A stretch of 64,000 nt of DNA. It comes from Cellulosimicrobium sp. Marseille-Q4280. Lineage in GTDB: Bacteria; Actinomycetota; Actinomycetes; Actinomycetales; Cellulomonadaceae. The translations under genes and the position numbers were made by a program. Positions 2,807-56,327 of this stretch are shown here, piece after piece. The DNA lies in the NCBI RefSeq assembly GCF_943181405.1, contig NZ_CALPBY010000001.1, forward strand, positions 186,001 to 250,000. The letters are read 5' to 3'. Each line of letters begins with the position of its first letter. Positions within the stretch are counted from its first letter, which is position 1. The notes under the pieces are model-generated. The model was not told the origin of the DNA. It worked only from the letters and a program-made list of their open reading frames with translations, and did not search any database.

Positions 2807-5800
2807 TCACTGGTACCGGACCTCCTGCGAGCGCCGCCGGATCACCGTCATCTCGTCCCGCTGGTTGCCCGTCGGGCCGAGGTAGTTGAACGCGTACGAC
2901 AGCTGCGCGTACCCGCCCGCGAGATGCGTCGGCTTGAGGAGGATCCGCGTCAGCGAGTTGTGGATGCCGCCGCGCAGCCCCGACGTCTCCGCGAGGGGCA
3001 CGTCGATCGTCCGGTCGGTCGCGTGGTGCATGTAGACCGTGCCCTCGGGCATGCGGTGGCTCACGACCGCGCGTGCCACGACGACGCCGTTGCGGTTGTA
3101 CGCCTCGATCCACTCGTTGTCCGCGACGCCGATCTTCGCCGCGTCGGCGGGGCTCATCCACACGTTCGGCCCGCCGCGCGACAGCGACAGCATGAAGAGG
3201 TTGTCCTGGTACTCCGAGTGGATCGACCACTTGTTGTGCGGGGTGAGGTACCGGACCGCGACCTCGGCGTGCCCGTCCGAGCCCGGGTAGCCCGACGGCG
3301 ACGTGTCGCCCACCACGGGCGAGTCGCCGAACAGGCGGTGCATGTCGAGCGGCGGCCGGAACACCGGCAGGTGCTCGCCCAGCTCGATCATCCAGTCGTG
3401 GTCGAGGTAGAAGTGCTGGCGCCCGGTGAGCGTGTGCCACGGCTTGAGCCGCTCCACGTTGACGACGAACGCCGAGTACCGACGCCCGCCGTGCTCCGAG
3501 CCGGACCACTCGGGAGACGTGACGACCGCCGTCGGGCGCGACTGCACGTCCGGGAACGTGATCCGCACGCCCTCCTCCTCGCGGGCCAGGTCCGCGAGCG
3601 GCGTGCCCGTGCGCTTCTCGAGGTTCTCGAACCCCTGCACCGCGAGCCGGCCGTTCGTCGTCCCGGACAGGGCGAGGATCATCTCGCACGCGTGCGTGTC
3701 CTTGTCGAGGCGCGGGCGCCCGGCGGCCGGTCCGTCCTGGACGACGCCGTTGCTCCGGCCCAGGCGGCGCACCTCCTCGTCCGGCATGAACGCGACGCCC
3801 TTCGTCGCCATCCCGGCGGTGTCAGTGAGCGGTCCGAGCGCCGCCATGCGCGCCGCGAACGCGGGGTAGTCGCGCTCCACGACGACGAGCTTCGGCATGG
3901 TGCGGCCGGGCACGAGCTCGCGCTCCGTCATCGGGGCGCCGGAGTCGGGGAGCGCGCCGTGCGGCACCGCCATCTCGTCGGGGGTGTCGTGCTGCAGCGG
4001 CACGGCGACGAGGTCCTCGCGCACCCCGAGGTGCGTCACCGCCATCTCGGAGACCTTCGCCGCGATCGTGTGGAACGTCGCGAAGTCCGTGCGCGTCTGC
4101 CACGGCGGGTCGACCGCCGGGTTGAACGAGTGCACGAACGGGTGCATGTCCGTCGACGACAGGTCGTGCTTCTCGTACCAGGTCGCGGCCGGCAGCACGA
4201 CGTCGCTGAACAGCGTCGTCGACGTCATGCGGAAGTCCATCGTCACGAGCAGGTCGAGCTTGCCCTGCGGCGCCTCGTCGCGCCACGTCATGGTCTGCGG
4301 CCGCCGGTCGGGCCCCGACTCCGACGCGTTCACCGCCGCGTCCGTGCCCAGCAGGTGCTTGAGGAAGTACTCGTTGCCCTTGCCCGACGACCCGAGGATG
4401 TTCGCGCGCCACACCGTCACGACGCGCGGGAAGTTCTCCGACGCGTCCGGGTCCTCGCACGCGAACCGCAGGTTCCCCGACCTCAGCTCGTCGACGACGT
4501 GCTGCGCGGGCTCCTTGCCCGCCGCGCGCGCCTCGTCCACCAGGTCGAGCGGGTTGCGGTCGAACGTCGGGTAGCTCGGCATCCACCCGCGCTGCGCCGA
4601 CTCGACGAGCGTGTCGGCCGTCGTGCGCCCGGCGAACTGCCCCTGCGCGAGCGGCGACGCCAGGGCGTCCGCCGGCAGCCCGTCGTAGCGCCACTGGTCC
4701 GTCGCGAGGTACCAGAACGCCGTCCCGATCATCTGCCGCGGCGGGCGCACCCAGTCCAGCCCGCCCGCGTACTGCGCCCAGCCCGTGACCGGGCGGCACT
4801 TCTCCTGCCCCACGTAGTGCGCCCAGCCGCCGCCGTTCACGCCCTGGCAGCCCGTGAGCGTCGTCAGCGCCAGCATCGCGCGGTAGATCGTGTCCGAGTG
4901 GAACCAGTGGTTCGCGCCCGCGCCCATGATGATCATCGAGCGCCCGCCCGAGTCGAGCGCGTTCTGCGCGAACTCCCGGCCGATGCGCTCCGCGGCCGGC
5001 GCGGGCACCCCCGTGAACTGCTCCTGCCACGCCGGCGTGCCCGGCGTCGAGGGGTCGTCGTAGCCCGTCGGCCACTCGCCCGGCAGGCCGAGCTCCGGCC
5101 GGTCGACGCCGTACTGCGCGAGCATGAGGTCCAGGACCGTCGTCACCACGTGGTCCCCGACGCGGCGCACCGGGACACCGCGCACGACGACGCCGGAGCC
5201 GCCCGTGTGGGCGGAGGCGTCGTCGCCCGGCGTCGGGTCGAGGTCGAACCGCGGGAGCGCGACCTGGACCGTCTCGTAGGTGTCCGGGGCGCTGTGGCCG
5301 GGTCCGGCGGGGGCGGGGGCGGGCGGCGTCGGGGCTCGGGCTACCCTCCGCGCCGCTCGTCCCTCGCGTCGCTCCCGCCAGGCCCGCCACGCCCTTCGCC
5401 TCCGACGCCGCCCCCGTCCCCGCCTCCGCGGCCGTCTCGCCTTCGTGCGCTGCCGAGGTAGTACCGCGGTCCGCTGAGGTAGTACCGCGGTCTGGCGAGG
5501 TAGTACCGCCGTCGGTCGAGCCGCGGGTCGGGGCGCCGCCCGGGGCGCCGAAGAAGGCGCCGTGCGGGTCGGCGACGGAGAGGAGCGGGTCGATGTCGCC
5601 CAGGTCGAGGTTCCAGCGGCCCGCGTCGGCGTCGCCGTAGCGGTGGCCGAGGGAGCCGTTCGGGATCCGGGGCGTGCCGTCGGCGTCGAGGACCACCGTC
5701 TTGAACGCCGCGTTCGCGGGCGGGGAGCCGTCGGGCGCGGGCGCAGCGGCGGCCGCGGCGAGCATCTGGTCGGGCAGGTCCGCGGCGGTGAGGAACTTGG

Positions 5801-6893
5801 CCGGGAGGTACGTGCCGTCGTCGCGCTGCTCGAGGCGCACGAGGTGCGGGAGGTCCGTGAAGCGGGCGCCGTACTGCGCGAACTCGGGCGTGCGGCGTCG
5901 GGCGTAGTGCTCGGTGAGGATCACGTGGCCCATGGCCTGGGCGACGGCGCCGTCCGTGCCCGGCTGCGGGGCGAGCCACTCGTCGGCGAACTTCGTGTTG
6001 TCCGCGTAGTCCGGCGAGACGACCACGACCTTCTGGCCGCGGTAGCGCGCCTCGGCCATGAAGTGGGCGTCGGGCGTGCGGGTCACGGGGACGTTCGAGC
6101 CCCACATGATGCAGTAGGTCGAGTTCCACCAGTCGGCGGACTCCGGGACGTCGGTCTGGTCGCCGAAGACCTGGGGCGACGCGACCGGGAGGTCGGCGTA
6201 CCAGTCGTAGAACGAGAGCATCGTGCCGCCGAGCATCTGCACGAACCGCGCGCCGACGCCGTGCGACACCATCGACATCGCGGGGATCGGGGAGAACCCG
6301 GCGACGCGGTCGGGGCCCCACCGCTTGATCGTGTGCACGTGCGCCGCCGCGACGATCTCCGCCGCCTCGTCCCACGACGCGCGCACGAGCCCGCCCTTGC
6401 CGCGCGCCGCCTTGTAGGCGCGCGAGGCGTCCGGGTCGGACGTGAGGAACTCCCACGCGAGCACCGGGTCGCCCCCGACGGTCGCCTTCGCCCGCCGGTA
6501 CAGGTCGAGCAGGACGCCGCGCACGTACGGGTAGCGGACCCGTGTGGGGGAGTAGGTGTACCAGGAGAACGCGGCGCCGCGCGGGCACCCCCGTGGCTCG
6601 TACTCCGGCGAGTCCGGGCCCACCGAGGGGTAGTCCGTCTGCTGCGTCTCCCACGTGATGATGCCGTCCTTGACGTACACCTTCCACGAGCACGACCCCG
6701 TGCAGTTCACGCCGTGCGTCGAGCGCACGACCTTGTCGTGCGACCACCGGTCCCGGTAGAAGACGTCGCCCTCGCGACCGCCGCGCAGGAAGACGTGACG
6801 GAGGTCGGCGGACACCTCGCCGCGGCGCAGGTGCTTGCCCAGGCGGAGCAGCGCGTCCTCGACGGCGTTGTCGGGCACGGTGGACTGCGACAT
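2807..6893 (-). CDS. narG: Respiratory nitrate reductase alpha subunit NarG, reading frame interrupted near 5300-5330
   Basis: NarG is the catalytic molybdo-bis-MGD subunit reducing nitrate to nitrite. The N-terminal half (from ATG 6893, SD CAGGAGG) shows the FS0 ligands H60, C64, C68 (HGVNCTGSC) and C103 (GCPRG), and the WGSNVPVTRTPD segment with the Mo-ligand Asp region. The C-terminal half (to 2807) contains QGVNGGGWAHYVGQEK and the usual NarG tail. The halves lie in different frames: one base too many (or two too few) occurs in a run of G-tracts at about 5306-5330. Just before it is an 80-residue low-complexity insert holding three 21-bp repeats translated as GTTSPDR, GTTSADR and GTTSAAH. 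Corrected length would be about 1,360 aa, over 100 longer than usual. This is either a sequencing or assembly error in the G-tract, or a real inactivation. Confidence 0.9.
5455..5517 (+). repeat. Three 21-bp GAGGTAGTAC repeats inside narG
   Basis: GAGGTAGTAC starts at 5455, 5476 and 5497, a strict 21-bp period. Each unit keeps the odd palindrome GGTA-G-TACC. Because 21 is a multiple of three the array stays in frame in narG, where it is read antisense as a heptapeptide repeat. The same unit forms arrays at 50786 and 54907. The narG frameshift lies 130-190 bp further downstream in the gene. Confidence 0.9.
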
Positions 6894-10613: not shown

Positions 10614-11285
10614 ATGCGCAGCTCACTCCTCGACCACGCCGAGCGCTCCGTCGAGCCCGGCAGCTTCCAGCTCCAGAACGACCGCATGCTCAAGGTCGAC
10701 CTGACCGGCACGGGCGGGTTCTTCTTCGCCAAGCAGGGCTCGATGGTCGCCTACCAGGGTGACGTCGACTTCGCGTACGAGGGCTCGGGCGGCCTCGGGA
10801 AGATGTTCAAGAAGGCCTTCACCGGCGAGGGGATGTCCCTCATGAAGGTCTCCGGGAGCGGTGACGTGTTCCTCGCGCAGGACGCCGACCAGGTGTTCGT
10901 GCTCCACCTCGAGGACGAGGGCGTCACGGTCAACGGCGCCAACGTGCTCGCGTTCGAGAGCAGCCTGACGTGGGACATCAACCGCGTCGAGGGTGCGTCG
11001 ATGATGAGCGGCGGGCTGTTCAACACGACGTTCCGCGGCACGGGCTCGATCGCCGTGACCGCGTACGGCACGCCGGTCGTGCTGAGCGTCGACGTGCCGA
11101 CGTTCGTCGACATGCAGGCCGCGGTCCTCTGGTCGACGTCGCTGCAGTCGGCGGTCCGCAAGACGGCGAAGCTGGGCGCCGCGATCGGCCGCGGCTCGGG
11201 CGAGGCGTACCAGCTCGCGCTGTCCGGGCAGGGGATCGTCGTCGTGCAGGCCTCGGAGGGGCACCCGATCCCCGCCGCGAAGTAG
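10614..11285 (+). CDS. AIM24 family protein
   Basis: 223 aa with no signal peptide or membrane segment. The repeated beta-strand pattern (LKVDLTGTGGFFFAKQGSMVAYQGDVDF, with a gap-free Gly-rich continuation) and the C-terminal LSGQGIVVVQASEG are typical of the AIM24/TIGR00266 group of beta-helical proteins of unknown biochemical role. A CAGGAT box at 10601-10606 lies 7 nt before ATG 10614, suggesting leaderless translation. The stop is TAG within AAGTAGTACCCGGG, which resembles one unit of the 21-bp repeat seen at other convergent junctions. Confidence 0.82.
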   Translation: MRSSLLDHAERSVEPGSFQLQNDRMLKVDLTGTGGFFFAKQGSMVAYQGDVDFAYEGSGGLGKMFKKAFTGEGMSLMKVSGSGDVFLAQDADQVFVLHLEDEGVTVNGANVLAFESSLTWDINRVEGASMMSGGLFNTTFRGTGSIAVTAYGTPVVLSVDVPTFVDMQAAVLWSTSLQSAVRKTAKLGAAIGRGSGEAYQLALSGQGIVVVQASEGHPIPAAK

Positions 11286-11320
11286 TACCCGGGTCGCCCC
11301 GGCCCACGGCCGGTGGGGCG
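11281..11320. terminator. Hairpin between convergent AIM24 and XRE genes, with one 21-bp-repeat unit
   Basis: CGCCCC at 11295-11300 pairs with GGGGCG at 11315-11320 and the inner GGCC/GGCC pair strengthens the stem. It lies between the AIM24 stop (11285) and the XRE stop (11321), so it can serve both. The sequence around the AIM24 stop, AGTAGTACCCGGG, matches the core of the repeat family found at 50786 and 54907. Confidence 0.6.
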
Positions 11321-12112
11321 CTAGCTGGCCAGGCCCCCCTCGGGCGGGCCTCCCGCCTCGAAGTACGCGGTGCTCTCGGGATCGGCCGGGTAGTACATCT
11401 CGACCGCGACCTCGTCGAGGGTGACGTCTCGTGGCGAACCGAAGGTCGTGATGGTCGAGAACAGCCGCAGGTCCTGGCCGTCCACGCGCAGGTGCATGGG
11501 GATCGCGACGTCGGACTCGATCGACGGCTCCGTCCCCTCCTCGGCACCCGGGCCGAGCAGCTCCTCGTAGAGCGCCGTGAGGGCGGGGTCCGGCGCGGCG
11601 GCGAGCTGGCGCCCGATCCGGGCGCGGAACATTGCCCGCACGTCCGCCAGGTTGACGACCAGCGGTGCCAGCCCGCGCGGGTCGAGGCCGAGGCGCACCA
11701 GGTTGACGGGCGGTCGCAGCAGGTCGGGGGAGACGTGGGCGAAGAACGGCTCGACGGCCCGGTTGGTCATGATCACGTCCCAGCGGCCGTCGACGACGAC
11801 CGCCGGGAAAGGCTCGTGCGCGCGGATCACCCGCGCCACGGCGCGGTGCGCCGCGGCCAGCTCGTCGTCGTCGAGCGGGCGCTCCGGGAAGCGCGGGGCG
11901 AAGCCCGCGGCGAGCAGGAGGCGGTTGCGGTCGCGCAACGGGACGTCGAGGTGGTCCGCGAGCCGCAGGATCATCGGTGCGCTCGGGTGGGACCTGCCGG
12001 TCTCGACCAGGCTGACGTGCCGGGGCGAGACGTCGGCGGCGATGGCCAGGTCCAGCTGGCTCAGGCGCCGTCGACGCCGCCAGGATGTCAACAGCTCCCC
12101 GACCGTGTGCAC
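11321..12112 (-). CDS. MmyB-like XRE-family transcriptional regulator
   Basis: 263 aa from the GTG at 12112. Residues 3-65 form a helix-turn-helix (GELLTSWRRRRRLSQLDLAI, DVSPRHVSLVETGRSHPS); the remainder resembles the MmyB/PAS-like ligand-binding domain (AVVVDGRWDVIMTNRAVEPFF, with a LRVDGQDLRLFSTITTFG-type end). A TAGCGT box at 12121-12126 sits 8 nt before this GTG. An ATG at 12160 in the same frame would place a 17-nt palindrome inside the coding sequence, so I prefer 12112. In this family the regulator is often divergent from the small oxidoreductase or stress gene it controls; here the neighbour is a SnoaL-like gene. Confidence 0.82.
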   Translation of the reverse strand: MHTVGELLTSWRRRRRLSQLDLAIAADVSPRHVSLVETGRSHPSAPMILRLADHLDVPLRDRNRLLLAAGFAPRFPERPLDDDELAAAHRAVARVIRAHEPFPAVVVDGRWDVIMTNRAVEPFFAHVSPDLLRPPVNLVRLGLDPRGLAPLVVNLADVRAMFRARIGRQLAAAPDPALTALYEELLGPGAEEGTEPSIESDVAIPMHLRVDGQDLRLFSTITTFGSPRDVTLDEVAVEMYYPADPESTAYFEAGGPPEGGLAS

Positions 12113-48397: not shown

Positions 48398-49317
48398 CCG
48401 TGCCGCTGACGTCGCGCCTCGGTCTCGACCCCGGCACGCGCGCGATCATCCTCAACGCCGACGACTACGGCATGTGCCGGGCCGCGAACCGCGCGGTCGA
48501 GGAGCTGCTGCTGGCGGGCCACGTCGACTCCGCCTCGCTCATGGTCCCGTGCGCGTGGGCGCCCGACGCGCTCGCGTTCGCCGCCACGCACCCGCAGGCC
48601 GACGTCGGCGTCCACCTCGTCCTGACGAGCGAGTGGTCGCGGTACCGGTGGCGCCCGCTCACCGGGACGGGCACGTCCCTGGTCGACGCCGCGGGGTACT
48701 TCCCCGCCGACGTCGCCACCGTCGAGCGGCAGGCCCGCGACGAGGACGTCGCGGCCGAGCTCGCCGCCCAGCTCGACGCGGCGCTCGCCGCGGGGGTCGA
48801 GGTCTCGCACCTCGACAACCACATGGGTTCGGTCTACGGCCTCGAGACGGGCCGCACGTTCCTGCCCCAGGTCTTCGAGCTCGCGGCGCGGCACGGGCTG
48901 CCGTTCCGGCTCCCGCGGACGACCGACGGGATGGCGCTGCCTCCCGGTGACCTCCAGCCCGTCCTCGAGGAGGCGACGGCAGCGGCCGACGCCCTCGGCG
49001 TCGTCCTGCCCGACCGGCTGTGGACGCACCCGTTCGCGCTCGCGGGCGAGGGCACGCCGGGCGAGGAGGACTACGCGGAGGTCAAGGCCGGATTCCTCGA
49101 CCTCCTGCGCCGCGTCCCGGCGGGGGTCACCGAGATCTACCTGCACCCCATGCTCGACGACGACGAGCTCGCCGACGTCGCCGACTACGGCGTGCCCAAG
49201 CGGGGCTTCGAGCACCGTCTGCTCGCCGACCCGGACGTCGCCGCCCTCATCGCGACCGAGGGGATCGTGCGGGTGGGCTGGCGCGACCTGCGCGCGGTGC
49301 AGCGGGGTGAGCGGTGA
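48394..49317 (+). CDS. YdjC/ChbG family carbohydrate deacetylase
   Basis: 307 aa. The metal-binding motif is AIILNADDYGMCRAANRAVEE (Asp-Asp near the start), with His in VGVHLVLTSEW, HLDNHMGSVYG, and IYLHPMLDDDEL. ChbG deacetylates chitooligosaccharides such as chitobiose; other members act on various acetylated sugars. GTG 48394 overlaps the ROK stop (GTGA), and its own stop overlaps the next start. With LPMOs close by, a chitin-oligosaccharide role is plausible. Confidence 0.9.
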   Translation: MTVPLTSRLGLDPGTRAIILNADDYGMCRAANRAVEELLLAGHVDSASLMVPCAWAPDALAFAATHPQADVGVHLVLTSEWSRYRWRPLTGTGTSLVDAAGYFPADVATVERQARDEDVAAELAAQLDAALAAGVEVSHLDNHMGSVYGLETGRTFLPQVFELAARHGLPFRLPRTTDGMALPPGDLQPVLEEATAAADALGVVLPDRLWTHPFALAGEGTPGEEDYAEVKAGFLDLLRRVPAGVTEIYLHPMLDDDELADVADYGVPKRGFEHRLLADPDVAALIATEGIVRVGWRDLRAVQRGER

Positions 49318-50792
49318 GCGGCTCCGCGGACGGGCCTCCGACCCCGGACGGCCCTCCGACCTCGCGCGGCCACGCGGCGTCGGGCACGGGACTGCTCGCC
49401 GCGGTGCGCGACCGTCGGCTCGTCGGACCTCCGACGCGGGCGCAGCGCGTCGCGTACGGCGCGTCCGCGTTCCCTGCCAACCTCCTGCTGCAGACGTTCT
49501 CCGCGTTCGTCGTGTACTTCTACGTCGACCACCTCGGCGTGCCCCCGGGCTGGGTCGCGGGCGCGATGGTCGCGCACGGGGTGCTCAACGCGCTGCTCAA
49601 CCCGCTCGTGGGCGCGGCGTCCGACCGGCGGCGCACGCGCTGGGGCCGGCGCGTGCCGTGGATCGGGCTGGGCGTGGTACCCCTCGTCGTGGCGTTCGCC
49701 CTCGTGTGGATGCCGCCGCCGTTCGGGCCTGCGGGCCTCGTCGCGTGGTTCCTCGTGGTCGTCGCGGTGTACGACGTCGCGTACGTCGTCGTGGTCCTCA
49801 ACGTCTCGGCGCTGTTCCCCGAGCTCTTCCGCACGACGGCGGAGCGCGCCCGGGGCAACGTGCCCCGCCAGGTCTTCGGGCTCGTCGGCATGATCCTCGG
49901 CACGGCCGGCGCGCCGCTGCTGTACGGGACGCTCGGCTGGACGTGGATGGCCGTCGCGCTCGCCGTCGTCAGCCTCGCGTTCTTCGTCTGGTCGTTCGCC
50001 GGGATGGTCGAGCGGCCGGTGGACGAGGCCGTGGTGCGCGAGCGCGAGGCGGGCGTGGGACTGCGCGACCAGCTGCGCTACACGTTCGCGAACCGCGCCT
50101 TCGTCACCTACGTGCTCGGCTCGCTCCTGCTGCAGAGCACGACGGCGATCGTCCTCGCCGCCGTGCCGTTCTACGTGCGGTACGTGCTCGGCGGGGCCGA
50201 GGCCGACGCGACGCTCCTCCTCGCACCGATCTTCGTCGCCGCGATCCCGTCCATCCTCGGCTGGTCGTGGGTCGTGCGCCGCGTCGGGCCCCGGACGGCG
50301 ATGCTCTGGGTGGTCGCGGTGTACGGCCTCGCGACGACGCTGTACCTGGTCCCGACGACCGTCGTCGGGGCGGCCGTCGCCGGGCTGGCGGTCGGGGTCG
50401 GTGTCGCCGGGCTCATGCAGGTGCTCGAGGTGGCGCTCGCCCAGGTGATCGACGACGACGAGCGCCGGACCGGCCTGCGCCGCGAGGGCATGTACTTCGG
50501 CGCGAACGGGTTCGTCGTGCGCGGCTCGGTCATCGTGCAGGCGGTGCTGGTCGCCGCAGTGCTCGGCGCGAGCGGGTACGTCGAGGGCGCCGCGACGCAG
50601 GCTCCCGAGGTGGCGACGGGCGTGCGGCTGCTCCTCGGCGCCGTCCCCGTGGCGCTCGCGGCGCTCGCGTTCGCGTGCTTCTGGCTCTACCCGCTGCGCG
50701 GGCGGGGCGACGGAGACGGCGAGGTGCCGGTCGCCGAGGCGGTCGCCGACGCCGCAGCCTCGCCCACGGCGTCCGACCCCCTGCCGAGGTAG
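49314..50792 (+). CDS. GPH-family sugar:cation symporter
   Basis: 492 aa with about 12 membrane helices. Glycoside-pentoside-hexuronide motifs include NLLLQTFSAFVVYFYVDHLG, NPLVGAASDRRRTRWGRRVPWI with the basic loop, and KTG-like REGMYFGANGFVVRGSV. An N-terminal 45-residue tail is Pro-rich. GTG 49314 overlaps the deacetylase stop. The stop is TAG, inside the first unit of a 21-bp repeat array. It probably imports the oligosaccharide whose deacetylase is encoded beside it. Confidence 0.9.
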   Translation: MSGSADGPPTPDGPPTSRGHAASGTGLLAAVRDRRLVGPPTRAQRVAYGASAFPANLLLQTFSAFVVYFYVDHLGVPPGWVAGAMVAHGVLNALLNPLVGAASDRRRTRWGRRVPWIGLGVVPLVVAFALVWMPPPFGPAGLVAWFLVVVAVYDVAYVVVVLNVSALFPELFRTTAERARGNVPRQVFGLVGMILGTAGAPLLYGTLGWTWMAVALAVVSLAFFVWSFAGMVERPVDEAVVREREAGVGLRDQLRYTFANRAFVTYVLGSLLLQSTTAIVLAAVPFYVRYVLGGAEADATLLLAPIFVAAIPSILGWSWVVRRVGPRTAMLWVVAVYGLATTLYLVPTTVVGAAVAGLAVGVGVAGLMQVLEVALAQVIDDDERRTGLRREGMYFGANGFVVRGSVIVQAVLVAAVLGASGYVEGAATQAPEVATGVRLLLGAVPVALAALAFACFWLYPLRGRGDGDGEVPVAEAVADAAASPTASDPLPR

Positions 50793-50953
50793 TACCCCGG
50801 CACCGCGAGGTAGTACCTCAGCACCGCGAGGTAGTACCCCGGTCGCGCGGGGTAGTACCCCGGTCGCGGGGGGTAGTACCCCGGTCGCGGGGGGTAGTAC
50901 CCGGGTTGCGCGGGGTAGTACCCCGGTTGCGGGGGTTCGTACCCGCGGTACTA
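50786..50953. repeat. 21-bp palindromic repeat array 1, between convergent genes
   Basis: Seven clear units start at 50786, 50807, 50828, 50849, 50870, 50891 and 50912, exactly 21 bp apart, with a decayed eighth at about 50933. The core is GRGGTA-G-TACCYC, and pairs co-vary (GAGG with CCTC in unit 2; GGGG with CCCC in units 4, 5 and 7). One unit in the opposite orientation (CGTAGTACCGCGG on the minus strand) ends the array and gives the MarR gene its TAG stop; the GPH gene stop is in the first unit. Confidence 0.92.
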
Positions 50954-51520
50954 CGTCGCGGGGTGGGTGGTTCCTCCGGGCCCGGCGAGCTCGTCCTCCG
51001 CGACGGCGCACAGGTCCGTGCCGGCGTCGACGTCGCGCAGGTCGCACGCGACCCGGCGCATGAGCAGGCGGAAGGAGTGGCGCTCCTCGGGCGAGAGCGT
51101 CCGCAGGAGCGCGTCCTCGGCGTCGCGCACCTGCGTGGCGAGCTCGGCGAGCCGACGGCGCCCGAGGGCCGTCGCGACGATGCGACGCGCCCGCCGGTCG
51201 GCCGGGTTCTGCTGCCGCTCGACGAGCCCGGCGGCGACGAGGTCGTCGACGAGGTAGGTCATGACCGTGCGGTCGATGCCGTGGCGCTCCGCGAGCGCGA
51301 GCTGGGTGGGCTGGTCGCCCTGGACGACGGACACCAGGACCTGGTACCCGCGCGTGCCGTGCGGCACGTCGACGAGCGCCTCCTCGACGGTCGCACGGTA
51401 GGCGCGCAGCAGGACGCCGAGGTGCCAGCCCAGGTCTTCGAGGTGCCCGGGCGTCGGCGCGAGGGCGGGGCCGTCGTCGGGCGTCCCCGGGTGCGTCGTC
51501 GGCTCTGTGGACGTGGACAT
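50951..51520 (-). CDS. MarR-family transcriptional regulator
   Basis: 189 aa. Winged helix: TRGYQVLVSVVQGDQPTQLALAERHGIDRTVMTYLVDDL in parts, with the wing GLVERQQNPADRRARRIVATA. The C-terminal helices are extended and acidic. TACCCT at 51527-51532 is 6 nt before ATG 51520, supporting a leaderless start. It is divergent from the LLM flavoenzyme operon and probably regulates it. Its stop TAG is in a 21-bp repeat unit. Confidence 0.9.
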   Translation of the reverse strand: MSTSTEPTTHPGTPDDGPALAPTPGHLEDLGWHLGVLLRAYRATVEEALVDVPHGTRGYQVLVSVVQGDQPTQLALAERHGIDRTVMTYLVDDLVAAGLVERQQNPADRRARRIVATALGRRRLAELATQVRDAEDALLRTLSPEERHSFRLLMRRVACDLRDVDAGTDLCAVAEDELAGPGGTTHPAT

Positions 51521-51546
51521 GCGCCCAGGGTACCGCGGGAATGCTG

Positions 51547-51591
51547 TTGCGCCACCTATCTGTTACGGATATGTTCTGCTCGACAACACAT
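51547..51591 (+). promoter_or_regulatory. Promoter and candidate MarR site ahead of the LLM operon
   Basis: TTGCGC (51547-51552), 17-bp spacer, TATGTT (51570-51575). The -10 overlaps TGTT-CTGCTCGAC-AACA (51572-51588), a dyad that could bind the divergent MarR protein and block transcription. The region is AT-rich for this genome. Confidence 0.5.
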
Positions 51592-51608
51592 CTTCGGATC
51601 GAGGACGC

Positions 51609-52562
51609 ATGGACTACGGCCACGAGCTCCGCTTCGGCTCCTTCATCACCCCGTCGGCGGCGTCACCCCGCGACGTCGTCGACCTCGCCGTGCTCTCGGA
51701 GCAGGTCGGGCTGGACCTCGTGACGTTCCAGGACCACCCGTACCAGCCGGGCTTCCTCGACACGTGGACCCTCATGAGCTGGGTCGCGGCCCGCACCGAG
51801 CGCGTGCGGATCGCCGGCAACGTCCTCAACCTCCCGCTGCGCCCGCCGAGCGTGCTCGCACGGTCCGTCGCGAGCCTCGACCGGCTCTCGGGCGGCCGGG
51901 TCGAGCTCGGTCTCGGCGCGGGCGGGTTCTGGGACCCCATCGTCGCGATGGGCGGCGAGCGCCTCACGCCGGGGGAGAGCGTCGAGGCCCTCGACGAGGC
52001 GATCGACGTGATCCGCGGGCTGTGGGACACGTCCACCCGCGACCGGCTCGTCGCCGGCGGCGAGCACCACCGTGTCGACGGCGCCAAGCGCGGACCTGCG
52101 CCCGCGCACGACGTCGAGATCTGGGTCGGTGCGCTCAAGCCGCGCATGCTGCGCCTCGTCGGCCGGACCGCGGACGGCTGGCTGCCGTCGCTCGCCTACC
52201 TGCAGAGCTTCGAGGCCCTCGCGCGCGGCAACGCGGCGATCGACGACGCCGCCCGAGACGCCGGGCGCGACCCCTCCGCGATCCGCCGTCTGCTCAACGT
52301 GGGTGGCCGTTTCACGGCCGATCGTGGCAGCGGCTTCCTCCAGGGGCCGCCGCAGCAGTGGGCCGAGCAGGTCGCCGCCGTGACGCTCGAGCACGGCGTC
52401 TCGACGTACGTCGTGGCGGGCGACGACCCGACGACGCTCGCCGTCGTCGGCCAGGAGGTCGCCCCCGCGGCGCGCGAGCTCGTCGCAGCAGAGCGCGGCA
52501 CGACCGGTACCGCGGGAGCCAGCAGCACCAGCAGCACCAGCAGCACCGCCGAGGAGGCCTGA
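51609..52562 (+). CDS. LLM class (luciferase-like) flavin-dependent oxidoreductase
   Basis: 317 aa. TIM-barrel features: MDYGHELRFGSFITPS, GLDLVTFQDHPYQPGFLDTW, GLGAGGFWDPIVAMGG, and EIWVGALKPRMLRLVGRTADGW in parts. Members use reduced FMN or F420. The last 20 residues are Ser/Thr repeats from a 9-bp DNA repeat (AGCAGCACC). ATG 51609 follows GAGGACGC. It is closely similar to the N-terminal half of the next gene. Confidence 0.9.
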   Translation: MDYGHELRFGSFITPSAASPRDVVDLAVLSEQVGLDLVTFQDHPYQPGFLDTWTLMSWVAARTERVRIAGNVLNLPLRPPSVLARSVASLDRLSGGRVELGLGAGGFWDPIVAMGGERLTPGESVEALDEAIDVIRGLWDTSTRDRLVAGGEHHRVDGAKRGPAPAHDVEIWVGALKPRMLRLVGRTADGWLPSLAYLQSFEALARGNAAIDDAARDAGRDPSAIRRLLNVGGRFTADRGSGFLQGPPQQWAEQVAAVTLEHGVSTYVVAGDDPTTLAVVGQEVAPAARELVAAERGTTGTAGASSTSSTSSTAEEA

Positions 52563-52564
52563 GC

Positions 52565-54913
52565 ATGACCGACTACGGCCACCCCCTCCGGTTCGGCACG
52601 TTCGTCACACCCCTCGCCGACGATCCCGACCTCACCGTCGCGCGGGCCGTGCTCGCGGAGGACCTCGGCCTCGACCTCGTGACGTTCCAGGACCACACGT
52701 ACCAGCCGCGGTTCCTCGACACGTGGACCCTGCTGACCTACGTCGCGTCCGCGACCGAGCGGATCCACGTCGTGCCGAACGTCGTCAACGTGCCGATGCG
52801 CCCGCCGGCCGTGCTCGCGCGCGCCGCGGCGAGCCTCGACCTGCTGTCGGACGGCCGCGTCGGGCTCGCCCTCGGCGCCGGCGCGTTCTGGGACGCGATG
52901 GAGTCGATGGGCGCGCGGCGTCTGTCGCCCGGCGAGAGCGTCGACGCGCTCGCCGAGGCGGTCGACGTGATCCGCGCGATCTGGGGCGAGGACGTCGCTC
53001 GCGCCGTCCCCGCGGGTTCGCGGGGCGGCGTCCTGCTGCCCGGCGAGCACCACCGCCTCGAGGGTGCCGAGCCCGGGCCGGCGACAACGCGTCGCATCCC
53101 CGTGTGGCTCGGCGCGCTCGGGCCGCGCATGCTGCGGCTGACCGGTCGGGTCGCCGACGGCTGGCTGCCGTCGCTCGGGCGCATCGGGACCGACGGCCTG
53201 CGCGCGGGCAACGCCGCGATCGACGCCGCCGCGGCCGCGGCCGGCCGCGACCCGCGCGAGATCACGCGCGTCCTCAACGTGTCCGGCGTCTTCAGGGCAG
53301 ACGAGGCGCCGCCGCGCGGCACGGGTCGCCCCGACCTCGTCGGGCCGCCGGAGGCGTGGGTCGAACGGCTGCTGCCGCTCGTGGTGGAAGAGGGCGTCTC
53401 GACGCTCGTCCTCGCGTCCGACGACGAGGCCACCACCCGTCGTTTTGCCGAGGAGGTCGTGCCGGCGCTGCGGGCGGCGGTCGAGCGCGAGCGCACGGCG
53501 ACCGGCACGGACACGAGCCGCGTCGTCCCGGCCGCGGTGCGCGGGGCGCGTCGACCCGGCATCGCGTACGACGACGTCCCCGCCTCGCTCGCCGAGCGCG
53601 CCGTCGAGCCCGGCGACGCCCAGCACGCGGCCGTGCGCTCGACGTACCTGCGCGGCGGCTCACCCGGCCTGGTGCTGCGCCCCCGCGACACGTCCGAGGT
53701 GGTCGAGGCACTCGCGTTCGCGCGTGCCCAGGAGGTCACGCGGCGCGTCCCGCTGTCGGTCCGCTCCGGCGGCCACGGGATCAGCGGGCGCTCGACGAAC
53801 GACGGCGGGATCGTCGTCGACCTCGGCGCGCTCGACGGGATCGAGGTGCTCGACGAGACGACCCGGCTCGTGCGGCTCGGGCCAGCCGCGCGCTGGGGTG
53901 ATGTCGCGACGGCGCTCGCGCCGCACGGCTGGGCCATCACGTCGGGCGACTCCGGCGGCGTCGGGGTCGGCGGCCTCGCGACCGCGGGCGGCATCGGGTG
54001 GCTGGGCCGCGCGCACGGCCTGACGATCGACCACGTGCGCGCCGTGGAGATGGTGCTCGCCGACGGGTCGGTGGTCCGCGCGAGCGACACCGAGAACCCG
54101 GACCTGTTCTGGGGCGTGCGCGGGGCCGGGGCGAACCTCGGCGTCGTGGTGTCGTTCGAGCTCGTCGCCGACGAGGTCGGCGCGGTGGGGTTCGCCCAGA
54201 TGGTGCACGACGCGTCCGACACCGCGACGTTCCTCGAGCGATGGGGCGCCGCCGTCGAGGCGTCGCCGCGCGACACGACGAGCTTCCTCCTCATGGGCCG
54301 CCCGCGGCCGGGCCAGCCGGTCGTCGCACAGACCATGACGATGGTCGACTCGGACGACCCGGACACCGTGATCGAACGCCTGCAGCCGTACGCGGCGATC
54401 GCGCCGCTCCTCCAGCAGGCACAGGCGCAGATCCTGCCGTACGCCGCCGTCGTGCAGGCGCCGCCGCGCGGGCCGCACGCCGGATCTGGTGAGCCGGTGG
54501 CTCGGTCCGGCCTGCTCGAGCACCTCACGCCCGCCGCGTCGGCGCGGCTCGCGGGCCTCGTCGCGAGCGGTGACACGTACTTCTTCCAGATCCGCTCCAC
54601 GGGCGGGGCGGCGTCGGACGTCCCCGCCGACGCGACGGCGTACGCCCACCGGTCCGCGAACTTCGCGGTGAGCGCGATGGGCGCGAGCCGCGCACGTCTC
54701 GACGCGCGCTGGGACGCGATCGCCGACGTCTTCTCGGGCTCGTACCTGAGCTTCGAGACCGACCCTCGCCCAGAACGGGTCGAGGACGCGTTCCCGCCCG
54801 CGACGCTCGACCGGCTGCGCGCGCTGAAGCGCCGCGTGGACCCGGGCAACCTCTTCCGCGACAACTTCCCGGTGCTCGGCCCGGACGCCCTGGACCTCGC
54901 CCCCGCGAGGTAG
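52565..54913 (+). CDS. LLM flavoenzyme fused to a berberine-bridge-type FAD oxidase
   Basis: 782 aa in two parts. Residues 1-320 are an LLM oxidoreductase paralogous to the preceding protein (LVTFQDHTYQPRFLDTW). Residues 350-780 are an FAD-linked oxidase with the PP-loop VRSGGHGISGRSTNDGG, where His is the usual covalent FAD site, and a C-terminal BBE end RRVDPGNLFRDNFPV. The second covalent Cys of bicovalent enzymes (G-x-C-x2-VGVGG) is Ser here (GDSGGVGVGG). ATG 52565 follows the upstream stop by 2 nt with GAGGAGG ahead. The stop is TAG within a repeat unit. It likely oxidises a small organic or alcohol substrate in two flavin steps. Confidence 0.9.
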   Translation: MTDYGHPLRFGTFVTPLADDPDLTVARAVLAEDLGLDLVTFQDHTYQPRFLDTWTLLTYVASATERIHVVPNVVNVPMRPPAVLARAAASLDLLSDGRVGLALGAGAFWDAMESMGARRLSPGESVDALAEAVDVIRAIWGEDVARAVPAGSRGGVLLPGEHHRLEGAEPGPATTRRIPVWLGALGPRMLRLTGRVADGWLPSLGRIGTDGLRAGNAAIDAAAAAAGRDPREITRVLNVSGVFRADEAPPRGTGRPDLVGPPEAWVERLLPLVVEEGVSTLVLASDDEATTRRFAEEVVPALRAAVERERTATGTDTSRVVPAAVRGARRPGIAYDDVPASLAERAVEPGDAQHAAVRSTYLRGGSPGLVLRPRDTSEVVEALAFARAQEVTRRVPLSVRSGGHGISGRSTNDGGIVVDLGALDGIEVLDETTRLVRLGPAARWGDVATALAPHGWAITSGDSGGVGVGGLATAGGIGWLGRAHGLTIDHVRAVEMVLADGSVVRASDTENPDLFWGVRGAGANLGVVVSFELVADEVGAVGFAQMVHDASDTATFLERWGAAVEASPRDTTSFLLMGRPRPGQPVVAQTMTMVDSDDPDTVIERLQPYAAIAPLLQQAQAQILPYAAVVQAPPRGPHAGSGEPVARSGLLEHLTPAASARLAGLVASGDTYFFQIRSTGGAASDVPADATAYAHRSANFAVSAMGASRARLDARWDAIADVFSGSYLSFETDPRPERVEDAFPPATLDRLRALKRRVDPGNLFRDNFPVLGPDALDLAPAR

Positions 54914-55140
54914 TACCTCAGGAACGCGAGGTAGTACTGCGGTCCAGCGAAGGCGGACCGCAGTACTACCTCGCGTTACCGGGGTACTACCTCGCGTTAC
55001 CGGGGTACTACCTCGCGTTACCGGGGTACTACCTCGCGTTACCGGGGTACTACCTCGCGTTACCGGGGTACTACCTCGCGGGACCGGGTGCTACCTCGCA
55101 GGACCGGGGTAGTACCTCGCGCTACCGGGGTACTGCTTCG
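54907..55140. repeat. 21-bp palindromic repeat array 2, between convergent genes
   Basis: Two plus-orientation units start at 54907 and 54928. Inverted units (GTACTACCTC) follow at 54963, 54984, 55005, 55026, 55047 and 55068, then 55088, 55109 and 55130 with one single-base slip. The units of each orientation point in the direction of transcription of the gene whose 3' end they meet. The first gives TAG to the LLM-oxidase gene; the last encodes the end of the BenE protein and its TAG. Confidence 0.92.
54923..54977. terminator. 23-bp perfect hairpin where array 2 changes orientation
   Basis: Arms 54923-54945 and 54955-54977 pair at all 23 positions around a 9-nt loop. It is made of one plus unit and one inverted unit, 10 nt past the stop at 54913. 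A bidirectional terminator is the simplest role, but the rest of the array is not needed for that. Confidence 0.7.
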
Positions 55141-56327
55141 GCGCCGGCCGGGCTGTCCTCCGGTGCCCGACGGCGCACGTGCAGCACCGCGTGGACGGCC
55201 AGTCCGGCGAGGATCGCCCAGAACGCCGCGCCGACGCCCCCGACGCTCACTCCCGCGGCGGCGACGAGCAGCGTGACGACGGCGGCCTCCCGCCCCCGCG
55301 GCTCCGCGAAGGCCCCTGCGAGCGCACCACCGAGCGCGCCGACGAGCGCGAGCCCCGCGGCCGCCTCGACCAGGCCGGGCGGTGCGGCGGCGACGAGCGC
55401 CGCGAGCCCCGCCGACGCGACGGCGAGCACGAGGTAGGCCCAGCCCGCGGTGTGGGCGGCGACCCACCGCCGCCGGGCGTCTGGGTGGGCCTCCGGCCCG
55501 GCGGCGAGCGCGGCGCTGATCGCGGCGAGGTTGATCGCGTGCCCGCCCGCGAGCGCCCCGGCGAGGGTCCCGAGCCCCGTCACGGTCATGGCCTCGCGCC
55601 ACGGCACGCGGTAGCCGAACGACGCCATGACCGCGACTCCCGGCACGTTCTGCGACGCCATCGTCACGACGTAGAGCGGCACCGCGAGCCCGACGACGGC
55701 CTGCCACGAGAGCGCCGGGGCGGTGAGGTCGAGCCGGGGGACGGCGTCGGACCATGCCGGCGCGCCGGCACCCGCTGCCGTCACCACGACGATCGCGAGC
55801 GCCACGACGAGCGCCACCGGGGCGGCCCACCGTGGCGCGAGGCGCAGGAGGACGAGCCAGACCGCGACGACCGGCGCGACGAGGAGCGGCAGGTCCACGA
55901 GCGCGCGCACCGGCGCGAGGCACAGCGTGAGCAGGACCCCGGCGAGCATGGCCTGCGCGACGGGCCTCGGGATGGCGCCGACGAGATCGCCGAGCCGGGG
56001 CCACAGGGCGGTGAGCAGCACGAGCGCGCCCACGAGGCAGAACGCCCCCACCGCTGCCGGCCAGCCGCCCGCGATGGCACCCGTCGAGACGAGCAGCGCC
56101 GCGCCCGGCGTCGACCACGCGAGCGTGATCGGCGTCCGGTGGCGCCACGTGAGCCACAGGATGCCGACGCCCTGCGTGACGCACAGCGCGAGCAGGCCGG
56201 ACGCCGCCTGCTCGGGCGTCGCGCCCACGGCCCGCAGCCCGGCGAGCACGACGGCGAACGAGCTCGTGAATCCGACGAGCGCGGTGACGAGCCCCGCGAG
56301 GACGGGCGGGGTGCGGTCGGACGGCAT
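55122..56327 (-). CDS. benE: BenE-family benzoate:H+ symporter-like permease
   Basis: 401 aa with about 11 membrane helices: LVTALVGFTSSFAVVLAGLR, ITLAWSTPGAALL, VTMASQNVPGVAVMASFGY, and GGHAINLAAISAALAAG are the typical BenE motifs. It moves benzoate or another small aromatic acid inward with a proton. ATG 56327 has GGAGCACC upstream. It ends in VPR then TAG within the last 21-bp repeat unit. The divergent XRE-cupin gene probably controls it; the symbol is by family, and benzoate is not shown. Confidence 0.88.
   Translation of the reverse strand: MPSDRTPPVLAGLVTALVGFTSSFAVVLAGLRAVGATPEQAASGLLALCVTQGVGILWLTWRHRTPITLAWSTPGAALLVSTGAIAGGWPAAVGAFCLVGALVLLTALWPRLGDLVGAIPRPVAQAMLAGVLLTLCLAPVRALVDLPLLVAPVVAVWLVLLRLAPRWAAPVALVVALAIVVVTAAGAGAPAWSDAVPRLDLTAPALSWQAVVGLAVPLYVVTMASQNVPGVAVMASFGYRVPWREAMTVTGLGTLAGALAGGHAINLAAISAALAAGPEAHPDARRRWVAAHTAGWAYLVLAVASAGLAALVAAAPPGLVEAAAGLALVGALGGALAGAFAEPRGREAAVVTLLVAAAGVSVGGVGAAFWAILAGLAVHAVLHVRRRAPEDSPAGAEAVPR

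Follow-up and report, generated by a model that had tools for sequence, protein, structure and literature searches.

GTAG-tagged REPs are short palindromic intergenic repeats which lie 3' of genes and favour convergent and unidirectional junctions, and their termini often supply a TAG stop codon to the flanking open reading frames (PMC3733652). BIMEs are mosaics of REPs in which such units are inverted and repeated (PMC2817692). Hairpins lacking a U-tract, often clustered, are found near the stop codons of genes in numerous bacteria (PMC8355165), and REPs located within 15 nt of a stop codon stall ribosomes (PMC12306157).

The window analyzed here, a stretch of 64,000 nucleotides from Cellulosimicrobium sp. 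Marseille-Q4280 (contig NZ_CALPBY010000001.1, positions 186,001 to 250,000), contains repeats which have the 3'-end location, the TAG supply, the opposed dimers and the occurrence of some copies within genes in common with GTAG REPs (PMC3733652). Since published GTAG REPs often supply TAG, stop codon supply as such is already known. However, GTAG is described there as an unpaired end tag beside a stem-loop, whereas in Cellulosimicrobium it is paired in the stem; moreover, unlike GTAG REPs, the Cellulosimicrobium hairpin needs two opposed units, the arms of which are tandem arrays (PMC3733652). BIMEs alternate the orientation of REPs, whereas the Cellulosimicrobium repeat stacks units of the same orientation and then reverses, usually once (PMC2817692). 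PMC8355165 reports that sequence is not conserved near the U-less hairpins, in contrast to the single genome-wide sequence, containing the stop codon, found here. The TAACTGA repeats of Beggiatoaceae are likewise direct intergenic repeats with stops in one orientation and open reading in the other, but they are heptamers located mostly before start codons, and no opposed-unit hairpin is described for them in the accessible sections (PMC4679880). For the combination of a two-unit hairpin, tandem arms, spare in-frame stops and a clade-wide core switch, no precedent was found in the accessible parts of the open-licence literature. A literature search for the letters GGTAGTACC gave unrelated titles among the matches listed, and a search on Cellulosimicrobium repeats gave nothing relevant among the matches listed.

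An earlier note, made from the letters of the window, had described two arrays of a 21-bp unit which end convergent gene pairs. Both are present, with 21 bp as the main period (Table 1), and all four array-flanking genes stop with a TAG inside a unit as claimed, three of them at the TAG of the core and the BenE gene in a spacer. The single unit reported at the stop of the AIM24 gene (PF01987) was also recovered: the TAG lies inside CGAAGTAGTACC, and a gene on the opposite strand (11321-12112, minus strand) converges on it. Searching both strands of the window for GRGGTAGTACCYC with up to one mismatch gave 31 matches, palindromic places being counted twice, as compared to a mean of 0.09 in shuffled sequence.

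Table 1 Repeat units and the stop codons they hold (window positions)
Feature	Position	Strand
Array 1: seven plus units (21-bp period) and one degenerate minus unit; MFS/MarR gap	50782..50956	
Array 2: two plus units, seven minus units (including mismatched cores), a reversed unit and a degenerate unit	54905..55138	
Array 2, innermost hairpin: 9-nt loop between perfectly paired 23-bp arms (54923-54945 / 54955-54977)	54923..54977	
Stop TAG of MFS gene (49314-50792) in first plus unit of array 1	50790..50792	+
Stop TAG (CTA) of MarR gene (50951-51520, minus strand) in the single minus unit of array 1	50951..50953	-
Stop TAG of luciferase-like/FAD-binding gene (52565-54913) in first plus unit of array 2	54911..54913	+
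Stop TAG (CTA) of BenE gene (55122-56327, minus strand) in spacer of degenerate unit, not in a core	55122..55124	-
Single degenerate unit CGAAGTAGTACC, holding AIM24 stop TAG 11283-11285	11278..11296	+
Three plus units in narG (minus strand): antisense, in frame with the N-terminal part, (DRGTTSx)n	5453..5520	+
CE-like piece in narG adjoining the units; 88% over 51 bases to the CE repeat	5341..5391	+

The exact core GGTAGTACC, which includes the tetranucleotide GTAG, occurs 133 times in the genome of the window (4.86 Mb), as compared to 22 times for the pattern read backwards, and 52 direct pairs of cores (42 at 21 bp, 9 at 20 bp and 1 at 19 bp) were found versus none in the control. The cores group into 55 clusters on several contigs, 29 with at least two cores and 26 single, in a count which is based on exact cores and leaves out arrays of variant cores alone. 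Many of the single exact cores look like chance matches, considering the 22 matches of the reversed control.

By this exact core, arrays appeared limited to the own genome and four of 16 congeners, which turned out to be an artefact, as another core type was found. GAGGTAGTACC was counted 104 times in genome G000, 59 times in G015, 47 in G013, 29 in G008, 8 in G004 and 0–4 times in the other 12 genomes, whereas GAGGTAGARCC is likewise enriched in ten other congeners, with 72–301 copies versus 14–34 in G000, G015, G013 and G008. Counts of GAGGTAGARCC in the array-poor species G003, G010 and G014 (9, 22 and 24, respectively) are near background. The genomes thus carry almost exclusively either TAGTACC or TAGARCC, following two clades. 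In a tree of four flanking proteins from 17 genomes (in some of which one or two proteins are missing or partial), a branch with a support of 100/99 separates the ten ARCC genomes from the four TAC genomes, which lie together with two array-poor species; the tree does not show the four TAC genomes as one clade among themselves. Among the units of the fetched loci, a fraction of 0.83 of the 157 from clade A (150 of them belonging to G000) have T at position 9, and 0.95 of the 182 from clade B have A. Since the cores match the clade at many loci, many loci have changed together, and these branch-specific versions of the repeat suggest either that copying acts on the whole genome or that the repeat is matched to a partner. 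In G026, which represents another genus of the family, ARCC gave 54 matches versus 10 in the control. Oerskovia flava also has a short array (L031:2250-2340), through either vertical descent or transfer; the junction is the orthologue of L082 8377-8439, the flanking proteins being 82% and 71% identical to those of L082.

Two properties which the earlier note had assigned to the unit did not hold. A strict 21-bp period had been claimed; same-strand neighbours up to 70 bp apart in fact show a mixture of 20 and 21 bp, with 21 bp in 61 of 100 and 20 bp in 24 of 100 spacings in clade A, and 21 bp in 83 of 116 in clade B. Likewise, the arms of a one-unit palindrome had been thought to co-vary, but the outer pair in question (GAGG/CCTC, GGGG/CCCC) forms in no more than 10 of 136 own-genome units, without association (Fisher p = 0.51), and in clade B the pair next to the palindrome centre forms in 2% of 182 units. 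The inner palindrome of the single unit is absent from the sister clade and is not the conserved feature of the element.

The element is a plus unit followed by a minus unit which together form a hairpin; both of its feet contain a TAG, and tandem copies can extend either arm. Among 14 clusters with both orientations, 12 are strictly plus then minus, 3.0 being expected. Opposed pairs with the exact TAGTAC core occur in six of the 17 genus genomes and are absent from the control, and in named records the pattern was found in C. cellulans MP1, C. arenosum and C. terreum, and at one locus each in Oerskovia flava and Hymenobacter; the Hymenobacter match (L035), one isolated hairpin, was taken as a chance match. 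The stretch 54903-54985 of array 2 folds at -60.3 kcal/mol (z = -9.9), the z-scores of the folded repeat stretches being -9.9, -13.8 and -5.6. Using simple shuffles, z-scores of -6.4 and -12.8 were obtained at the arrays; of five other convergent junctions in the window, folded against the same kind of shuffles, four gave values of -0.6 to 1.1 and one gave -3.3.

Hairpin candidates were collected from the fetched loci L031 onwards with a search pattern which itself required GTAG and CTAC, yielding 43. In the opposed pairs GTAG is paired inside the stem, and in most of the 43 candidates CGAG pairs outside GTAG; an unpaired GTAG at the foot of a one-unit stem-loop was seen neither among them nor in the fold of array 2. 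The opposite arms of the 43 candidates match each other beyond shuffles which mix the clades. Because of this mixing, matching was retested within core types, using 24 TAGTAC and 16 TAGA hairpins after removal of L032 at 1984 and L035, which appear unrelated, and of one candidate belonging to neither type. In the TAGTAC hairpins, arms match at position 14 in 0.96 of cases versus 0.53 when shuffled (0 of 2000 shuffles as high) and at position 15 in 0.79 versus 0.59 (5 of 2000), and the mean of positions 12–17 was reached by 0 of 2000 shuffles. The TAGA hairpins match at position 10 in 0.88 versus 0.56 (24 of 2000 as high), and 73 of 2000 shuffles attained their mean for positions 12–17; neither core type stood out at positions 13 and 18. 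Co-variation of the arms is well supported in TAGTAC-type and weakly supported in TAGA-type hairpins. The earlier note had set palindrome co-variation in other arrays as its own test: it fails for one unit alone and is seen between opposed units, an arrangement which that note had not considered. Hairpin-templated mutation instead of selection could be the source of the matching arms.

The arrays lie downstream of genes. Junctions were counted once each in 46 stretches of the own genome and in 20 congener stretches picked for holding arrays, five further array places at stretch edges being left unclassed; genes were taken from our own caller, which missed AIM24, so that gene counts are approximate. 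Convergent junctions make up 16 of 31 array junctions versus 31 of 207 others in the own genome (p = 1.7e-5) and 9 of 15 versus 4 of 25 in the congener stretches (p = 0.006), but 1 of 10 versus 6 of 36 in nine named loci picked by the exact opposed pair. Divergent junctions account for 1 of 56 array junctions versus 49 of 268 others in the three sets together. As divergent junctions are avoided throughout, location downstream of a gene is the firm rule, and convergence applies to two of the three sets; the proposed bias to convergent 3' ends holds with respect to 3' ends, and as convergence in the own genome and the congener stretches, and fails in the nine named loci. In 28 of 50 own-genome pairs of a cluster and a gene reading into it, the gene stops within 30 bp of the outermost core, in keeping with a GC-rich hairpin at or just after the stop; the stop is >30 bp away in the other 22. 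That units point along the gene they abut was borne out, the outermost matched unit being in sense orientation in 25 of the 28 genes stopping within 30 bp (counted from the listing).

TAG is a minority stop, as had been stated, being used by 17 of the 64 called window genes with a stop (array neighbours included) and by 23 of 210 other genes of the own genome, i. e., those in the 46 stretches which do not read into arrays. Against this baseline, 19 of 28 own-genome genes stopping within 30 bp of an array use TAG (p = 2e-10), 15 of the 28 exactly at the core TAG; the nine TGA stops near arrays precede the first core by 5–26 bp. In the congener stretches, which comprise junctions 1 and 2 plus the picked arrays, 33 of 64 gene-cluster pairs stop within 30 bp, and 29 of these 33 use TAG, as compared to 27 of 86 others (p = 2e-8), with 24 of the 33 stopping exactly at the core TAG. 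Supply of TAG stops by the units is thus supported. As 21 bp correspond to seven codons, each extra 21-bp unit offers a further in-frame TAG. Loss of the first TAG shifts the stop of the gene to the following unit, 21 nt downstream; this is seen at junction 3, where G004, G005 and G009 have GGAG in the first unit and their called stop is found in the second.

Three junctions were compared in 16 congeners, namely, MFS/MarR (1), FAD/BenE (2) and that of locus L069 (3). The left gene stops with TAG in 14 and with TGA in one of 15 loci with a called stop at junction 1, and with TAG in 13 and TGA in one of 14 loci at both junctions 2 and 3. The TGA cases, G013 (junction 1), G008 (junction 2) and G010 (junction 3), lack a unit, as read from the sequence. 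At the first two junctions, some species retain TAG in the absence of clear units, G010 and G014 being examples for junction 1; the stop therefore need not have arrived with the repeat, and part of the stop association may be older than the repeats. G003 at junction 1 and G013 at junction 2 have minimal hairpins, the arms of which are not tandemly repeated. Most of the genus has units at the three orthologous junctions, and their cores are largely clade-specific: TAC units in G000 at junctions 1–3, in G015 at 1 and 2 and in G008 at 3, and mostly ARC units in clade B, with an occasional TAC unit in G005; the minimal hairpins of G013 at junctions 2 and 3 have other core letters. Such recurrence represents concerted change.

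Some units are located inside proteins. Palindromic repeats tolerated within protein genes are known from the Rickettsia palindromic elements; unlike these, most Cellulosimicrobium arrays are intergenic and tied to stops, and the in-frame copies are tandem units. The three units which had been reported within narG are real and encode a linker of the protein. In NarG, in a P1B-type ATPase (L063; after the metal-binding domain) and in a putative membrane protein (L119; at the end of a protein which looks membrane-bound), units are antisense and in frame, and since they are antisense, no TAG is read. Among 13 NarG loci, eight from congeners have the N- and C-terminal parts in one frame, separated in these eight by CE-like stretches or by repeats resembling the unit, be they clear or degenerate; four of the 13 loci gave just one of two motifs. 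Repeats of this kind create variable linkers in proteins such as NarG. The own-genome NarG (window 2807-6890) has its N- and C-terminal parts in different frames, which is either real or due to a sequencing error. The unrelated NarG (window 5341-5520) and P1B-type ATPase (L063:2825-3051) have similar linkers, with DRGTTSA repeats and a GETAAEAVGAASEAKGVAGLAG-like stretch, which are encoded by units plus a CE-like piece. CE is a second, 87-bp palindromic repeat (e. g., L091:1651-1737, L112:1658-1744, L100:1786-1872), the copies of which in 15 fetched loci, from clade B and G010, are 97–100% identical; those in own-genome loci reach 81–96% over 51–90 bases. Several loci have CE flanked by a plus array and a minus array; at junction 1 of G010, CE is present in the absence of arrays.

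The reading we prefer, at a probability of slightly less than one half (about 0.47), is that the repeats are a genus-wide REP-like family of hairpins which would act as U-less terminators or 3'-end caps. The functional unit would consist of a plus arm and then a minus arm, that is, CGAGGTAG-NNCC-variable-GGTC, a short loop and the reverse complement, and a transcript entering from either side would form a GC-rich hairpin whose foot is often at the stop codon and often contains its TAG. Such a hairpin would be a two-sided terminator and 3'-end barrier without a U-tract, either factor-independent or Rho-assisted; between 46000 and 60000 in the window, no terminator-like site with a U-tract after the hairpin was found. 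Arms would lengthen by tandem duplication, mostly in 21-bp steps, and the copies within a genome would be homogenized by recombination between copies or by a putative mobilizing activity. The phrase "spreading termination elements" in the earlier note comes close to this: 3'-end placement and stop use stood, and termination itself we infer. The family combines translation stop, hairpin and tandem growth in a single unit, and its sequence changes in concert throughout the genome while units recur at the same gene ends. This opens the questions how short palindromic repeats are homogenized in bacteria devoid of a RAYT transposase, and whether stacked in-frame stops and hairpins contribute to termination.

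A selfish REP-like mobile repeat, spread by a putative transposase or by template switching, for which 3' ends are merely tolerated landing sites and stop use is incidental, seems somewhat unlikely. It would account for the high copy number with clade-specific cores, for the in-frame antisense copies in NarG, the P1B-type ATPase and the membrane protein, and for the near-identical palindromic CE between plus and minus arrays at several loci. However, units recur in most of the genus at the three compared junctions, and their positions therefore look old. Moreover, GTAG REPs are often RAYT-linked (PMC3733652), whereas the 17 genus genomes gave no match to the Y1 transposase family PF01797, which was matched in five of 14 control genomes; a RAYT-driven REP was rejected on this ground. 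Searches with a clade A array in plasmids, with a clade B array including CE in plasmids and phages, and with exact unit pairs in viral contigs gave no match, and a phage or plasmid origin was rejected.

That the arrays are a neutral by-product of a short hairpin terminator, with arms expanded by slippage and equalized by template switching and with function confined to the founding hairpin, we regard as unlikely. Unequal arm lengths, near-identical neighbouring units and the mixtures of 20 and 21 bp fit such slippage, as do the minimal hairpins without arrays in G003 and G013, but neither the clade-specific core common to unlinked arrays nor the number of arrays is explained. The core switch between TAGTACC and TAGARCC, which in each genome involves both arms and between dozens and hundreds of units, might reflect a dedicated trans-acting factor whose specificity has changed between the sister clades, a proposal we consider rather improbable. 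If true, the factor would be a terminator, roadblock or processing protein binding RNA or DNA, and would recognize the foot of the hairpin along with the stop codon. Iteron-like arrays of sites for a DNA-binding protein, as the earlier note had suggested, would fit the spacing of two helical turns (20–21 bp being by far the commonest), but are very unlikely and were rejected because the inner palindrome is not conserved, being lost in the sister clade, and its outer pair does not co-vary; moreover, the arrays are scattered and tied to 3' ends, with no replication gene adjoining the two window arrays (MFS, MarR, luciferase/FAD, BenE).

Comparison of 14 loci with known RNA families at gathering thresholds returned one 5S rRNA alone. 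In G012 and G016 (L116 and L120), a 5S rRNA gene, identified by its Rfam match in L120 and by eye in L116, is closely followed by an array with CE. Another hairpin repeat, GCCGAGAAGTGA ... TCACTTCTCGGC, is present at L069:3875-3947 and has many blast matches in the genus; it is not a tRNA. A further hairpin repeat of the type CGAACCC..GGGTT.. / ..AACCC..GGGTTCG occurs near gene 3' ends in two species (L069:2199-2277 and L090, approximately 5500-5600).
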